Source: Glycocaulis albus
GTDB taxonomy: Bacteria > Pseudomonadota > Alphaproteobacteria > Caulobacterales > Maricaulaceae
Direction of reading: 5' to 3'
Assembly (NCBI RefSeq): GCF_014639075.1
Contig: NZ_BMFS01000002.1
Location: 62,001-126,000, forward strand
Length of the DNA stretch: 64,000 nt
A model generated the notes under the pieces. That model ran no database searches. It saw only the letters and a program-made list of their open reading frames with translations, and was not told the origin of the DNA. Below, piece after piece: positions 15,284 to 40,552 of the stretch (positions are counted from its first letter, which is position 1; every line of letters begins with the position of its first letter). A program made the position numbers and the translations under genes.

Positions 15284-15754
15284 TTGGAAACTGCACGCGC
15301 TTTTCGCGATGCTCTCGGCTGTTACCCAACCGGCGTGGCCCTGGTCACGGTTCTGGAGAACGGCCGCGCGCGGGCTCTCACAATAAACTCCTTTGCCTCC
15401 GTCTCGCTGGAACCGCCGCTGGTTCTGTGGTCGCTGGACAGGGGGAGCCTGCGCTACGACCAGTTTTCTTCAGCACCGCGCTTCGCGATCAACGTGCTGG
15501 GAGCCGATCAGGAAGCGCTGGCGCTGGCCTGCGCGCGCGATGATGATCTGGGACGGGTAGGCGGACAGTGGGCGGAAGGTGAAACCGGCGTGCCGCTGGT
15601 CAGGGACGCGATCGCCCGGTTCGAGTGTACGCTGGACGCCGTGCACGAGGGCGGCGACCACATCATCATCGTTGGACGGGTAGCCGCGTTCGACCGGCCC
15701 CGCACAGCGCCCGCCCTTGTGTTCCACCGGTCAGTGTTTGCAGCGGCGCATTAG
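15284..15754 (+). CDS. Flavin reductase family protein
   Basis: The 156-residue protein has the FMN-binding split-barrel pattern of NAD(P)H:flavin oxidoreductases: GCYPTGVALVTV (residues 12-23), ALTINSFASVSLEPPLVLWSL read in two halves (31-51) and FAINVLGADQEALA (68-81), ending HHIIIVGRV-like strand (GDHIIIVGRV). Such proteins supply reduced flavin to a partner monooxygenase or reduce flavins directly. It begins with TTG at 15284, supported by GGAGG at 15273-15277. No monooxygenase gene is nearby, so its partner is unknown. Confidence 0.88.
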   Translation: METARAFRDALGCYPTGVALVTVLENGRARALTINSFASVSLEPPLVLWSLDRGSLRYDQFSSAPRFAINVLGADQEALALACARDDDLGRVGGQWAEGETGVPLVRDAIARFECTLDAVHEGGDHIIIVGRVAAFDRPRTAPALVFHRSVFAAAH

Positions 15755-15774
15755 CGCCTCGGGAGAAAGAATTC

Positions 15775-16635
15775 ATGACAATTGCCGCCTTTCTCGGACT
15801 GGGCGTGATGGGCTATCCGATGGCCGGGCATCTGAAAGCGGCCGGCCATGATGTGCGTGTCTGGAACCGGACCGGCGCCAAGACGAAGGCCTGGGCTGAC
15901 CAACATGGCGGCACGCCCTCAGCCAGCCCGCAGGATGCGGCCGGGGGGGCGGATATCGTGTTCATGTGCCTGGGTGACGACCCGGATGTACGCGCCATCG
16001 CACTGCCTTTGCTGGAACATATGAAACCCGGCGCAGTGCTCGTCGATCACACCACGGCGTCGGCACAGCTCGCGCGCGAACTTCACGAGGCGGCGTCAGC
16101 GAAGGGTATCGGCTTTGTCGATGCGCCGGTATCGGGCGGACAGGCGGGCGCGGAAAATGGCCAGCTTTCCATCATGTGCGGCGGCGATGCGGATGTGTTT
16201 GCGAAAGCCGAGCCTGTGATGCAGGCCTATGCCAAGGCCATTGTCCATGCCGGGCCGGCGGGGGCAGGCCAGCTGACCAAGATGGTCAACCAGATCTGCA
16301 TTGCCGGGCTGGTGCAGGGATTGTCCGAAGGCATTCACTTCGCGCAGGCCGCCGGGCTGGACGTGGAAACCGTCATCCGCGCGGTCTCCAAGGGCGCGGC
16401 GCAAAGCTGGCAGATGGAAAATCGCTGGCAGACAATGGAGCAGGGCAAATTCGATTTTGGCTTTGCGGTCGAATGGATGCGCAAGGATCTTCGTATTGCA
16501 CTTGAAGAGGCGCGCGCCAATGGCGCCAAATTGCCCGTTACCGCACTCGTCGACCAGTTCTACGCGGAAGTGGAAGCCATGGGTGGCAAGCGCTGGGATA
16601 CGTCCAGCCTGATTGCGCGGCTTACCTCAGAATGA
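15775..16635 (+). CDS. NAD(P)-dependent beta-hydroxyacid dehydrogenase (3-hydroxyisobutyrate dehydrogenase family)
   Basis: The 286-residue protein has an N-terminal Rossmann motif GLGVMGYPMAGHL (residues 7-19), the substrate motif FVDAPVSGGQAGAENG (about 118-133) and the catalytic-lysine helix GAGQLTKMVNQICIAG (Lys about 168). This fits the 3-hydroxyisobutyrate, tartronate semialdehyde or glyoxylate reductase family. A second family member, more clearly MmsB, lies at 21900 in the valine cluster, so this paralogue probably has a different substrate. The ATG at 15775 follows GGGAGAAAG. The end overlaps the next gene by 4 bases (ATGA). Confidence 0.86.
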   Translation: MTIAAFLGLGVMGYPMAGHLKAAGHDVRVWNRTGAKTKAWADQHGGTPSASPQDAAGGADIVFMCLGDDPDVRAIALPLLEHMKPGAVLVDHTTASAQLARELHEAASAKGIGFVDAPVSGGQAGAENGQLSIMCGGDADVFAKAEPVMQAYAKAIVHAGPAGAGQLTKMVNQICIAGLVQGLSEGIHFAQAAGLDVETVIRAVSKGAAQSWQMENRWQTMEQGKFDFGFAVEWMRKDLRIALEEARANGAKLPVTALVDQFYAEVEAMGGKRWDTSSLIARLTSE

Positions 16636-17264
16636 GCGTCGAGCTCCTCTTCTCCATTCTCGACCATGCAGGCGTGTTCCTGTTCGCCGTGTCGGGCGGG
16701 ATCATCGCCGCGCGCAACCGGCTGGACCCTTTTGGCGCAGCCATTCTGGGTGCAGTCACGGGCATGGGCGGCGGCACGCTGCGCGACATGATCCTCGGCA
16801 GCCTGCCGGTCTACTGGGTCAATGCGCCGGAATATCTCGCCCTGGCGCTGATTGGCGGCGTGGCCGGCTATTACGGCTCCGCCCTCGTTACGTCTGGCAA
16901 GGGCATCCGCATGAGAGCGCTGGTCTGGGCTGATGCAGCGGGTTTGAGTGTCTTTTGTGTGATCGGCGCGCAAGCGGGTCTCGCCGCCGGGGCGCACTGG
17001 TCCATCGCGGCCCTGACCGGCGTGATGAGCGCGGCCTTTGGTGGGCTGCTGCGCGATATCATCGTCAACGAGGTGCCGCTGATCCTGCGCGCAGAGATTT
17101 ATGCGCTCGCGGCACTGGCGGGTGCCTCCGCCTACATCATAGCCATCCAGCTGGGCGTGATGACCAGTATTGCGGCCATTGGCGCGGCTTTGCTGGCGTT
17201 CGTGATACGCGGCGCGTCGGTCCAGTTCGGCTGGTCACTGCCGCCGATTGGGCGGGTGGAGTGA
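16632..17264 (+). CDS. TRIC-type (UPF0126, YicG/YadS-like) membrane protein
   Basis: The 210-residue integral membrane protein consists of two internally repeated halves, each with a glycine-rich motif: GAAILGAVTGMGGGTLRDMI (about 36-55) and GVMSAAFGGLLRDIIVNEV (about 130-148). About seven hydrophobic segments are visible. Proteins of this family are bacterial relatives of trimeric intracellular cation channels or small-solute permeases; the natural substrate is unknown. It is translationally coupled to the upstream dehydrogenase by an ATGA overlap and followed after 3 bases by the Shedu-like gene. Confidence 0.88.
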   Translation: MSVELLFSILDHAGVFLFAVSGGIIAARNRLDPFGAAILGAVTGMGGGTLRDMILGSLPVYWVNAPEYLALALIGGVAGYYGSALVTSGKGIRMRALVWADAAGLSVFCVIGAQAGLAAGAHWSIAALTGVMSAAFGGLLRDIIVNEVPLILRAEIYALAALAGASAYIIAIQLGVMTSIAAIGAALLAFVIRGASVQFGWSLPPIGRVE

Positions 17265-17267
17265 GTA

Positions 17268-17885
17268 ATGTTTGGTCCGTTCGACACACGTATTCCTTTT
17301 GGAGAGATTGGCGCTACCGCTGATCGTTTCGAAGAAGTTCTAGAAGGCGCGAAAAGCGAGCGTCCCATCCAGAGGTTTTTTACACAGAGTCCGTGGGTTT
17401 TGGCGGCTATGCACCCGCATGGAAACGAGGTTTTCCCTGAATTTCGCTTTGGGTCGTCTTACAGAGCAGATTTCGTGGTTTTGGAAGAAAGCTCAGCTGG
17501 TACTTTCGTGGAACTGGTTGAGCTGGAGTCGCCGGTTGCTTCCCTAGTGACAAAAGACGGTCAGTTCGCAAAGTCAGTACGCAAAGCTCTGACCCAAGTC
17601 GGAGATTGGCATGATTGGCTAGTCCGCAATCCGGGGACACTGACGGACAGCATCGACAGAGGCGGCCTAGGTATTGACGAGTTGGGTGCTGTAATGAAAA
17701 CAGTCTACGTGGGCCGGAGGTCAATGATTTCTGAGAAATTCAATGAGTTGAGGCAGCGAGAATTCAGATATTCAGGAGTTCAGATCGTCACTTACGACCG
17801 AATTCTCAGCTGGCTTCGTAAGCGAGCTGAAGATGATCAGCGAATATCTGGTATATATCGCGATATAAAGCCCGTTTTCGACTAA
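17268..17885 (+). CDS. Shedu-like (DUF4263) protein, possible defence nuclease
   Basis: The 205-residue protein resembles the C-terminal nuclease domain of Shedu/SduA: an N-terminal IQRFFTQSPWVLAAM segment (about residues 34-48), FPEFRFGSSYRADFVVL (about 56-72) with the Asp of a PD-(D/E)xK-type core, then FVELVELESP (80-89) with the two core glutamates, and a later helix QVGDWHDWLVRNPG (about 112-125). These match the family in order and spacing from memory. The short form with no separate sensor domain is compatible with single-gene Shedu variants. The gene is visibly less G+C-rich than its neighbours (47% in 17461-17520 by hand count), pointing to transfer. It starts 3 bases after the TRIC gene and ends 5 bases before hemB on the other strand. 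Confidence 0.72.
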   Translation: MFGPFDTRIPFGEIGATADRFEEVLEGAKSERPIQRFFTQSPWVLAAMHPHGNEVFPEFRFGSSYRADFVVLEESSAGTFVELVELESPVASLVTKDGQFAKSVRKALTQVGDWHDWLVRNPGTLTDSIDRGGLGIDELGAVMKTVYVGRRSMISEKFNELRQREFRYSGVQIVTYDRILSWLRKRAEDDQRISGIYRDIKPVFD

Positions 17886-17890
17886 AGCAG

Positions 17891-18874
17891 CTACTCCCCC
17901 AATATCTCCGCTGCCACTGGCGCGAAATAGGTGAGGATTCCGTCCGCGCCGGCACGCTTGAAGCAAGTCAGCGTCTCCATCATCACCCGCTCGCCATCGA
18001 TCCAGCCGTTTTGCGCCGCCGCCATGATCATCGCGTACTCCCCGGACACCTGGAAGGCATAGGTCGGCACGCCGAACGCCTCCTTCACGCGGGTAACGAT
18101 ATCGAGATAGGGCAGGCCGGGCTTGACCATCACCATGTCGGCGCCTTCCTCGATATCCATGGCGACCTCGCGCAGGGCCTCATCGGTATTGGCCGGGTCC
18201 ATCTGATAGGTCTTCTTGTCTCCTTGAAGCTTTGCCGAGCCGATGGCCGAGCGATAAGGCCCATAGAAGCCGGAGGCGTATTTCGCCGCGTAGGACAGGA
18301 TCAGCGTATCGGTATGGCCGGACTCCTCCAGCGCACCCCGGATCGCGCCGATGCGGCCATCCATCATGTCGGACGGGGCCAGCACATCACAGCCCGCCTC
18401 AACCTGCGCCAGGCCCTGCTGGACCAGCAGATCGACGGTGGCGTCATTGAGGATGACGCCGTCCTCCATCACCCCGTCATGGCCATGATCGGTAAAGGGG
18501 TCGAGCGCTACATCGCAGATTATGCCCACTTCCGGCGCAGCATCCTTCATCGCCTTGACCGCCCGCATGACGAGGCCATCGCGATTGAGCGCTTCGGTAC
18601 CGGCATTGTCCTTCAGGGAAGGGTCGATATGCGGAAATACGGCAATCGCGGGGATGCCGAGGTCACGCGCACGCTTCGCGGCTTTCGCCGCTTCGGCGAC
18701 GCTCATGCGCACCGTGCCGGGCATGGCCTCGACCGGCTCGATAGGATCGGCGCTGTCTGATACGACAATCGTCCAGATAAGGTCATGCGGGGTCAAATGG
18801 GTCTCGCGGACCAGATCGCGGATCCAGGGCTGGCTGCGCGTGCGCCGCAGGCGGGTATTGGGAAACAGGGCCAT
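17891..18874 (-). CDS. hemB: Delta-aminolevulinic acid dehydratase (porphobilinogen synthase)
   Basis: HemB condenses two 5-aminolevulinate molecules into porphobilinogen in haem synthesis. The 327-residue protein carries both Schiff-base lysines: Lys198 in LSYAAKYASGFYGPYR and Lys251 in MVMVKPGLPYLD. The metal segment CDVALDPFTDHGHDG (120-134) has aspartates rather than the three cysteines of zinc enzymes, so a magnesium-type (aspartate-rich) enzyme is inferred. The ATG at 18874 matches MALFPNTRLRRTR starts; the frame remains open upstream but that region is the divergent acyl-CoA dehydrogenase. With hemA at 22929 it forms the Shemin pathway. Confidence 0.95.
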   Translation of the reverse strand: MALFPNTRLRRTRSQPWIRDLVRETHLTPHDLIWTIVVSDSADPIEPVEAMPGTVRMSVAEAAKAAKRARDLGIPAIAVFPHIDPSLKDNAGTEALNRDGLVMRAVKAMKDAAPEVGIICDVALDPFTDHGHDGVMEDGVILNDATVDLLVQQGLAQVEAGCDVLAPSDMMDGRIGAIRGALEESGHTDTLILSYAAKYASGFYGPYRSAIGSAKLQGDKKTYQMDPANTDEALREVAMDIEEGADMVMVKPGLPYLDIVTRVKEAFGVPTYAFQVSGEYAMIMAAAQNGWIDGERVMMETLTCFKRAGADGILTYFAPVAAEILGE

Positions 18875-18925
18875 TTCGTCTATCTCGCGTGCCAAAGACC
18901 GTAAGAGCTTGTCAGGAGGTTTGCC

Positions 18926-20132: not shown

Positions 20133-20390
20133 ATGAAGTATGTCGGCGTGCTTGAAGCGAAGACCCATCTCTCCCGCCTGCTCGACGAGCTGGAAAAGAC
20201 GGGCGAGCCCATCACCATCACCCGACACGGCAAGCCGCTGGCGGATCTGGTTCCGTCACGGCAACCCCGGGAAAAAGTGCCAGCCCGTGAGCTGGTAGAG
20301 CGCTTTCGCGCCCTCGGCGCGACCATCCGGCCAGACCCGGTGGAGGATGCGCTCAGCTGGGAAGAACTTAAAGAGCTTGGCCGCTCTTGA
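20133..20390 (+). CDS. vapB: Type II antitoxin, Phd/YefM family (VapB)
   Basis: The 85-residue protein has the Phd/YefM N-terminal DNA-binding fold, with YVGVLEAKTHLSRLLDELEK at residues 3-22 and the strand PITITRHGKPLADLVP (about 27-42), and a short charged C-terminal tail ending WEELKELGRS that would wrap the toxin. The ATG at 20133 is chosen because it gives the standard length; a TTG at 20118 would overlap the operator. Its stop overlaps the TTG start of the toxin (TTGA), the tight coupling expected of an antitoxin-toxin pair. It interrupts a valine-catabolic gene set. Confidence 0.88.
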   Translation: MKYVGVLEAKTHLSRLLDELEKTGEPITITRHGKPLADLVPSRQPREKVPARELVERFRALGATIRPDPVEDALSWEELKELGRS

Positions 20391-20794
20391 GTGTTCTCGT
20401 GCTCGATGCGTCGGTGGCGATTGCGTGGGTGCTGCCCTCGCAGTCAACACCCGCAACGCAAAAGCTGCTCGCGCAATCAGATGATTACGAGCTGGCCGCG
20501 CCCTACATCTTCGTGTGGGAAGTGGGCAATCAGTTCGTCCGGTTTGCACGGCGGGGACTGATATACCGCGATGCAATGGACAATCTGGACGCATTAGGCA
20601 TCCGCCTTTTCGCTCCGGCCTCGATCGACGACATTTTGGAGAGCGGTCACGGCGCACTGGCGGCAGGCCTCTCCCTGTTCGATTACGCCTACCTGTCGCT
20701 GGCGGTGACGCTGGACGCGCCACTTGCCAGCCGGGATGGCGGGCTGTTAGCAGCCTGCGGGGCGCTTGGTGCGCCCTTCATCGACCTCCGCTAG
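20387..20794 (+). CDS. vapC: PIN-domain ribonuclease toxin (VapC)
   Basis: VapC toxins are magnesium-dependent RNases, typically cutting tRNA or rRNA, held inactive by VapB. The 135-residue protein has the PIN acidic residues in order: Asp7 in VLVLDASVAIAW, Glu46 in FVWEVGNQFVRFA, and the aspartates in LFDYAYLSLAVTLDAPLASR (about 97-115). It starts with TTG overlapping the vapB stop. The downstream hydrolase begins 25 bases after the toxin stop, so all three could be co-transcribed. Confidence 0.9.
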   Translation: MSVLVLDASVAIAWVLPSQSTPATQKLLAQSDDYELAAPYIFVWEVGNQFVRFARRGLIYRDAMDNLDALGIRLFAPASIDDILESGHGALAAGLSLFDYAYLSLAVTLDAPLASRDGGLLAACGALGAPFIDLR

Positions 20795-38570: not shown

Positions 38571-39413
38571 TTAGTACCAACGGCCAACCGCTCTAATGGT
38601 GAAGTCAGAAACTCCAGGCAAACAAGGCTCATTATCGCCGTCGGCGAACAAAAGACGAACCCCCGTCCTGCTGGCGACAGGTAGCAACCTTACTGCTGGA
38701 TAAAAAGCGTCCTCTAAGTATTGGAAATTGGCATTCAATGCCTTTATTTTTTCAAAAAATTTGATCGTATTTTCTCGTTTTGGCCCCGAAAGATATTGAA
38801 ATAGCGCTTCCCTCTCCGAGCTAGATAAAAAAACCAAGTAGTTAATTGCAAATAATTCCTCCTCTAAGCCATTCTTTAGTGGAACTTTAAACTTTAATAT
38901 AGGTGAGTTTAGTGTTTGATTTTTTGGATCATTGAATTTTTCGCCAATTACTCCATTGCCGACTATTTCCTCGGCACAACTCATAATCACGCATCCAGCC
39001 CACTCCTGACTGCCTTCAAAACGCACTAGGCGCGGGAATGCCTCACTAACGAAGATGTTTCTTTCGTCGTCCGCGAGGAAGTTGCCATAGGCTACTGCGC
39101 CGCGCAGTGGCATTCCTGCTTTTGCAGACAGCTCCAACAAATTAGAAACTGCAAATATAAAGTGGCCTATGTTATAGGGATCATTAGTTTCCCCTGAAAC
39201 AAGAACTATTGAGTCGAATAGGAATTGAGAAAATATAAAATTCGGCCTCTTTTCTCCGTCGCCAATAGCCTCACCGAACGTTTCTTGTTTAGCTGAATCG
39301 ATAAATTTTGAGTATTTTTCATGAATTTCGTCGAGAGGGCTACTCTCGAGCATTGCCGAAAATCCAAGGATATCAAGAAATGCAATCAGCCGATTCGCGA
39401 ACATGTTTGTCAT
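38571..39413 (-). CDS. AT-rich protein with class III nucleotide-cyclase-like fold (function unknown)
   Basis: This 280-residue protein is not a family I can name with certainty. Three motifs match the class III nucleotidyl cyclase fold in order: RLIAFLDILGFSAML (residues 8-22; compare FxDIxGF, first metal aspartate), FSQFLFDSIVLVSG (about 61-74; compare GDS, second metal aspartate) and MPLRGAVAYGNFL (about 98-110; compare RxGxxxG). Base composition is very different from the neighbours: 38881-38940 is 25% G+C by hand count. Its ATG overlaps the stop of the upstream beta-lyase gene as ATGA. No effector gene is adjacent. It may be a defence-related cyclase (Pycsar-like) or an unrelated stand-alone protein. 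Confidence 0.6.
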   Translation of the reverse strand: MTNMFANRLIAFLDILGFSAMLESSPLDEIHEKYSKFIDSAKQETFGEAIGDGEKRPNFIFSQFLFDSIVLVSGETNDPYNIGHFIFAVSNLLELSAKAGMPLRGAVAYGNFLADDERNIFVSEAFPRLVRFEGSQEWAGCVIMSCAEEIVGNGVIGEKFNDPKNQTLNSPILKFKVPLKNGLEEELFAINYLVFLSSSEREALFQYLSGPKRENTIKFFEKIKALNANFQYLEDAFYPAVRLLPVASRTGVRLLFADGDNEPCLPGVSDFTIRAVGRWY

Positions 39414-40552
39414 AGCGTAATCAGCGCCTGCTCCAGGTCGGCCCAGAGGTCTTCGATATCCTCCAGCCCGATCGACAGGCGCAAAAGCGCGCCTTCGGCC
39501 TTCCACGGCACGGCGGTGCGCCTGATCTGGCGGTCGCAGGAGAGCGCGAGGCTTTCGTACCCGCCCCACGAGAATCCGATCCCGAACAGTTTGAGGCGGT
39601 CCACAACCGCTTCACCCTCGCGCGCGCTGATATCCTTCAGGATGAACGAGAAACAGCCTGCGGCACCGGAGAAATCACGGGTGTAGATCCCATGATCCGG
39701 GTGTGAGGGCAAAGCGGGGTGCAGCACGCGGCTGATCTTCGGGTGCGCCTCAAGCCGCCGGGCGATCTCCAGCGATGCCGATTCAGCGCGTTCCAGCCGC
39801 AAGGGCAGGGTGCGTAGCCCCCGCAGTGCCAGAAACGCATCGTCGGGCGAGACATGCAGCCCGTATAGCTTTTCCCGGTCAGCAAGCCGCTTGGCTGCAT
39901 CGCCTCTGGCCGCAACCGCCCCCATCAGGAAATCGGAATGGCCGCCGACATATTTGGTCAGGGCCTGCGCGGCGTAGTCGATACCCATCTCCAGCGGGTT
40001 CATGAGGATTCCGGCAGTCCAGGTATCGTCGACAACGGTCGGCACCCCGGCCTCCTTGGCCGCGCTGGCGATTGCCGGCACGTCTTGAAGCTCAAACGTC
40101 AGGGAGCTGGGTGATTCCAGCGCGATGAGGGCGGTATTTGCGGTAATGAGCGACGCAATCCCCGCACCGATGCGCGGGTCGTAATAGACCGGCGTCACAC
40201 CGAGGCGCGGCAATTCCTCGTCGCAGAACCGCCGGACCGGCCCGTACACGCCATCGCTGATCAGCGCCTCGCCGGATCCCCTGATTGCAGTGCGGATGGC
40301 CAGCACCACTGAGGCGAGCCCCGAGGGCGCCAACGCACAGTGATCGGCCTCATAAAGCCCGCGAATCGCATCACGAAGCTCCCTGTTGGGAGCGACGCCG
40401 CCGCGGCCATAATGACGCCGCGAGCCTGTGGGTTCATATAGCTCCGACGTGGAAGGAGCCAGAACGGTGGAGGCGCGCTTGATTGCCGGGTTGACGAGGC
40501 CGTCGCCCTCATCACTGCGCCCGGAATGGATGATGCGCGTATCGCGTTTCAT
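39410..40552 (-). CDS. metC: Cystathionine beta-lyase (MetC-type PLP enzyme)
   Basis: The 380-residue enzyme belongs to the gamma-family of cysteine/methionine PLP enzymes. It has YGRGGVAPNRELRDAIRGLY (about 48-67), CALAPSGLASVVLAI (72-86), the PLP-binding VDDTWTAGILMNPLEMGIDY (174-193) and the Schiff-base Lys200 in ALTKYVGGHSDFL. Alphaproteobacterial relatives split cystathionine to homocysteine, pyruvate and ammonia in methionine synthesis; other C-S lyase activities are possible. The ATG at 40552 is clear. The final four bases overlap the start of the AT-rich gene, and the C-terminal end looks complete. Confidence 0.85.
   Translation of the reverse strand: MKRDTRIIHSGRSDEGDGLVNPAIKRASTVLAPSTSELYEPTGSRRHYGRGGVAPNRELRDAIRGLYEADHCALAPSGLASVVLAIRTAIRGSGEALISDGVYGPVRRFCDEELPRLGVTPVYYDPRIGAGIASLITANTALIALESPSSLTFELQDVPAIASAAKEAGVPTVVDDTWTAGILMNPLEMGIDYAAQALTKYVGGHSDFLMGAVAARGDAAKRLADREKLYGLHVSPDDAFLALRGLRTLPLRLERAESASLEIARRLEAHPKISRVLHPALPSHPDHGIYTRDFSGAAGCFSFILKDISAREGEAVVDRLKLFGIGFSWGGYESLALSCDRQIRRTAVPWKAEGALLRLSIGLEDIEDLWADLEQALITL

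Follow-up and report, generated by a model that had tools for sequence, protein, structure and literature searches.

The 64,000-nucleotide stretch of Glycocaulis albus DNA analyzed here (hereafter, the window) encodes a compact Shedu-family protein of 205 aa that consists of the SduA_C nuclease core only (17268..17885, plus strand) and carries a glutamate where the PD-(D/E)xK active site is expected to have a lysine. By both sequence and fold, the protein is a Shedu; we class it as a family variant rather than a canonical SduA, because its catalytic lysine is replaced by E87, a glutamate common to 25 of the 26 aligned sequences of its lineage. This lysine-to-glutamate replacement is an old, maintained trait of the lineage and not decay in the window gene, which is itself a recent-looking, horizontally gained insertion between two genes that adjoin each other in five of five same-genus genomes.

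A compact member of the Shedu family

The open reading frame begins with an ATG that is the sole start retaining the conserved first helix, and the encoded protein contains the strings RADFVV and VELVELESP from which a sequence-only reading had proposed a Shedu-like (DUF4263) anti-phage nuclease at these coordinates. The profile search and the structure comparison called for by that reading both returned Shedu. The protein matches Pfam SduA_C (8.8e-14; 52.4 bits against a curated cut-off of 27) and 13 SduA models of PADLOC (best, 3.2e-21, 74 bits), and NCBIfam yielded no match. An AlphaFold2 model built from 30 aligned sequences (pLDDT 93.9, pTM 0.88) is closest to the solved Shedu nuclease domains, with the B. 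cereus nuclease-domain octamer 8ti9_B ranking first (Z 15.6, 172 aligned residues, 3.0 Å), followed by E. coli SduA (8ps5 and 8ps4, Z 13.6) and B. cereus SduA (Z 13.0). Other PD-(D/E)xK enzymes score lower, the top non-Shedu fold being FokI (Z 8.6), with BamHI (3bam) at Z 5.8. A chance occurrence of the acidic motif is rejected by the SduA_C match and the fold match taken together.

Across these solved Shedu proteins (B. cereus 8ti8/8ti9 and E. coli 8ps4/8ps5, Z 13.0-15.6), the nuclease fold is common over model residues 9-192, and the B. cereus protein has D, E and Q positions in common with the window protein. The differences are that the core identity is 14-18%, that glutamate replaces the lysine of ExK, and that B. 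cereus and E. coli SduA comprise 382 and 411 aa, whereas the window protein, with 205 aa, has no N-terminal sensor. Its nuclease core spans model residues about 10-192, leaving no room for an N-terminal sensor or regulatory domain. Compact forms of SduA are already known, both as PADLOC models and as RefSeq proteins named 'SduA domain-containing'. In particular, PADLOC model PDLC00395 (212 positions) covers the full length of a compact ExE protein from an Acinetobacter plasmid (2.3e-117) and also matches the window protein (5.4e-11), which, however, scores far lower on every PADLOC model than the Acinetobacter protein does on this one.

Close relatives of the window gene were found neither among viral contigs and phages nor, with the protein as the query, in the genome contig collection, and its identity to any plasmid protein is at most 33%. 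PHROGs gave a single match (E 0.32), and the viral fold library gave merely weak, partial matches to the model. What the sequence-only reading observed is confirmed, and its interpretation is partly supported: the assignment to Shedu stands on the SduA_C match and the fold, and the single-gene insertion and the absence from sister genomes, described below, hold as well. Neither outcome that it had named as refuting was seen, the protein matching DUF4263 and the gene not being conserved at its locus. The acidic pattern, E85-L-E87, lacks the lysine of PD-(D/E)xK nucleases. That reading missed the change at the catalytic lysine, the lineage that shares it, and the existing compact SduA models of PADLOC.

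A lineage with glutamate at the catalytic lysine position

From the D, E and K set of the PD-(D/E)xK active site, the window protein keeps D68, at the catalytic aspartate position (17469..17471, plus strand), and E85, and the motif E85-L86-E87 (17520..17528, plus strand) stands where ExK would be expected. We aligned 49 SduA_C domains, of which 45 went into a tree computed with the trait columns masked; one ExE domain (L059) and three ExK domains (L008, L084, L086) were left out as short or divergent. In this set, D68, E85 and Q110 are present in 45/45 rows. Position 87 is glutamate in 25 and glutamine in one of the 26 rows of the ExE group, and lysine in all 19 others. The conserved helix glutamate, E31 (17358..17360, plus strand), is found in 21/26 ExE rows (the remainder being three gaps and two arginines) and in 19/19 ExK rows. 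The motif Q110...D113-W114 (17595..17609, plus strand) accompanies ExE, with W114 present in 26/26 ExE rows and 0/19 ExK rows. Migration of the lysine to K96 does not hold as a general rule, given that this position is lysine in 16/26 and arginine in 1/26 ExE rows and lysine in 7/19 ExK rows as well.

The ExE label requires two changes on the 45-row tree, compared with 14.8 in shuffles; hence, the ExE group clusters, although the window protein itself sits on a long end branch and joins no particular relatives with strong support. As the 26 ExE rows were mostly retrieved by window-like queries, the 26:19 ratio is not a frequency; in the less biased set of 25 distinct PF14082 matches, which includes L086 as a weak partial match, ExE occurs in 7/25, or 6/24 without the window protein. 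The ExE group pairs tested are under purifying selection: among the seven pairs with usable dS, dN/dS is 0.05-0.29 in six and 0.51 in one very close pair (dS 0.04), and an eighth pair is saturated. These estimates cover pairs of other ExE group members; the window gene belongs to the group, but its relatives are all distant, sharing 33% identity at most. Together, the lineage-wide glutamate and W114, the clustering on the tree, and the purifying selection in these pairs indicate that the change is a kept lineage trait.

The loss of the sensor goes along with the active-site type. Among the 25 distinct PF14082 matches, 5/7 ExE proteins but only 1/18 ExK proteins are shorter than 260 aa (Fisher p 0.002), and without the window protein the ExE count is 4/6 (p 0.006). 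Because the tree gives ExE one change, the link between ExE and short proteins amounts to one event and provides no independent test.

Insertion at the Gly_transporter/hemB junction

The gene lies between a Gly_transporter family gene (PF03458; 16632..17264, plus strand) and hemB (ALAD, 1.1e-134; 17891..18907, minus strand, start codon not fixed). It starts 3 bases past the TGA of the former, and its stop codon is 5 bases from that of the latter. The sequence-only reading gave these distances correctly but omitted that hemB is on the minus strand, so that the junction is convergent. It also correctly described the gene as having no partner: none adjoins it at the site. Upstream, the Gly_transporter gene overlaps by 4 bases a 3-hydroxyisobutyrate dehydrogenase-like gene (15775..16635, plus strand, with the start codon taken at 15775), presumably the first gene of an operon. 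A scan of 15600-18000 found neither a sigma-70-like promoter nor an intrinsic terminator, which is weak evidence but makes co-transcription of the Shedu-like gene with the upstream operon plausible. A Shine-Dalgarno-like GGAG (17258..17261, plus strand), 6 bases 5' of the ATG and within the 3' end of the upstream gene, may serve its translation.

The composition of the gene is foreign. As the sequence-only reading noted, it is AT-richer than both neighbors, with 49.5% G+C compared with 65.6% and 63.0% (62.7% for the window), falling to 46.7% in 17461-17520. In codon usage, it is the second oddest among the 46 ORFs of at least 200 aa in the window. The only odder one encodes a 332-aa protein (38571-39569, minus strand; 46.4% G+C) that has no Pfam match. 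Elsewhere in the window, a VapC-like PIN-domain protein is encoded at 20387-20794 (plus strand).

Searches with the window protein across 61 relatives, counting its own genome, and across six genomes of the genus returned a match in its own genome only. When the profile of the ExE lineage was run over 137 family genomes, the window gene was the one clear member; apart from it, there were just one weak partial match (27.5 bits, motif not read) and a weak match to the canonical Shedu of the host itself. At the locus, the gene is absent from 5/5 same-genus genomes, in all of which the Gly_transporter gene adjoins hemB with nothing Shedu-like between them; the coding-to-coding gaps are 16, 14, 122, 246 and 345 bp, compared with 632 bp here. 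A housekeeping gene is rejected by these empty sites and the patchy presence: the gene is not conserved at its site. The true spacer is just 10 and 8 bp in two sisters, and 3 + 5 bp flank the coding sequence in the window, implying that the insert corresponds very nearly to a single bare gene. A target-site duplication is not seen, the flanking direct repeats being 5-mers only, and no N-terminal remnant or mobile-element debris was seen at the insertion site. Local truncation of a longer Shedu is rejected, there being no upstream remnant and compact homologs occurring alone elsewhere. In three relatives (L020, L022, L024), the same junction holds other single genes, with gaps of 345, 1144 and 700 bp. 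The junction is a tolerant insertion site.

Genomic contexts of the relatives

Some relatives of the window protein are encoded on mobilizable plasmids. On a Priestia megaterium plasmid (L060 1159-3840), an ExE Shedu gene directly follows genes for a GajB helicase and an AAA ATPase, with 6 bp separating it from the helicase gene, and looks like an appendage to a Gabija system. An ExE core of 191 aa from an alphaproteobacterial MAG is encoded 12 bp before a ResIII helicase. Such helicase neighbors suggest a source of restraint for some ExE relatives; there is none at the window site. A plasmid of Vibrio diabolicus (L012 2859-3717) carries a compact ExE Shedu gene between two 73-nt repeats, which we take to resemble Vibrio integron attC sites, and this gene may be an integron cassette. 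A Rhodococcus relative is plasmid-borne and lies near relaxase and mobC genes. The sole glutamine case of the ExE group, with the motif ELQ, comes from Catellatospora sichuanensis (L057 3353-4567), where a WapI-like immunity domain is fused to the Shedu core. The host genome also encodes a canonical ExK Shedu of 390 aa (G000:C10; L090 9885-11057, minus strand); RadC and ParA-like genes lie in the same region, which is probably a mobile element.

Proposed function and alternative explanations

We consider it probable, while allowing for substantial doubt, that the window protein is a stand-alone, metal-dependent Shedu-family DNA nuclease core directed against invading DNA. It would be a PD-(D/E)xK-fold endonuclease that keeps the acidic set E31, D68 and E85 and, with E87 in place of the lysine, has a BamHI-like active site. 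According to a review of Type II enzymes, the PD-(D/E)xK lysine is glutamate in BamHI and glutamine in BglII and NotI (PMC4081073), which favors an active metal-dependent nuclease. The likeness to BamHI consists in this glutamate and the common core fold alone: no sequence relation is shown, and no methylase lies beside the window gene. The gene would have entered the convergent junction by horizontal transfer, with nothing attached to its coding sequence. Probably, it would be transcribed as part of the upstream operon and translated from the Shine-Dalgarno sequence that the 3' end of the preceding gene provides. The most likely target would be incoming DNA, of phage or plasmid origin; the contexts of some relatives, with GajB, ResIII, an integron-like repeat or a mobilizable plasmid, agree with a role in defense, while the searches described above provided no phage or viral-contig relative to tie the window gene to phage conflict. 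One point against this reading is that sensing in known Shedu depends on N-terminal domains, which are reported to detect DNA ends or to hold the nuclease in check (PMC12904381, PMC11201134) and are absent here. Restraint must therefore have another source: either the core itself, through its oligomeric state, DNA-end geometry or a slower active site, or a different protein.

The replacement of the lysine could instead mean that cleavage was lost: in V. cholerae SduA (VcSduA), the K557A substitution abolishes anti-phage activity (PMC12137116). A dead or non-cleaving Shedu relative might act as a regulator, decoy or inhibitor by binding to DNA ends or to some other nuclease, and a regulatory pairing is imaginable with the canonical Shedu of the same genome. 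We regard this as unlikely, if deserving of some weight, given that the other acidic residues are invariant, that the replacement is fixed as glutamate (25/26) instead of drifting, that BamHI likewise has glutamate there, and that ExE proteins are also present in genomes, such as G150, G241, G320 and G397, for which a PF14082 search showed no second Shedu. The foreign composition and codon usage, the lack of a close relative and the clear presence in only one species of the family would also fit a recently acquired passenger, a foreign gene or fragment without function in this host and heading to decay. The frame, however, is intact, the domain is complete and confidently modeled, all core residues are kept, the Shine-Dalgarno sequence is plausible, no leftover N-terminal piece or mobile debris lies at the site, and compact homologs exist alone, making a functionless passenger quite improbable. 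A nuclease with a non-defense role, for example, in repair or plasmid maintenance, could draw on the Rhodococcus plasmid relative near relaxase and mobC, but the patchy presence and the insertion in one species are ill-suited to a core repair role and several relatives adjoin defense-like genes; we give this possibility very little credence.

Going beyond the active stand-alone nuclease that we prefer, a broader and speculative scenario, which we hold to be improbable, is that the ExE/QxxDW lineage is a separate Shedu branch in which the lysine-to-glutamate change, by creating a slower or partner-gated site, makes the autoinhibitory N-terminal domain dispensable. The bare core could then be carried safely as a defense gene or integron cassette of ~0.6 kb, sometimes licensed by a helicase (GajB, ResIII).

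Implications for the Shedu family

We found no published account of a lysine-less (ExE) Shedu lineage in the literature searched, a set to which the primary Shedu papers do not belong, and we make no claim that the lineage is unpublished. As far as this set shows, work on Shedu focuses on autoinhibition by N-terminal sensors, and the lysine is essential in one Shedu. A widespread lineage without the lysine, and often without the sensor, offers small proteins that would test both ideas directly. Moreover, genome annotation tools that call 'Shedu' from DUF4263 alone merge two kinds of active site.
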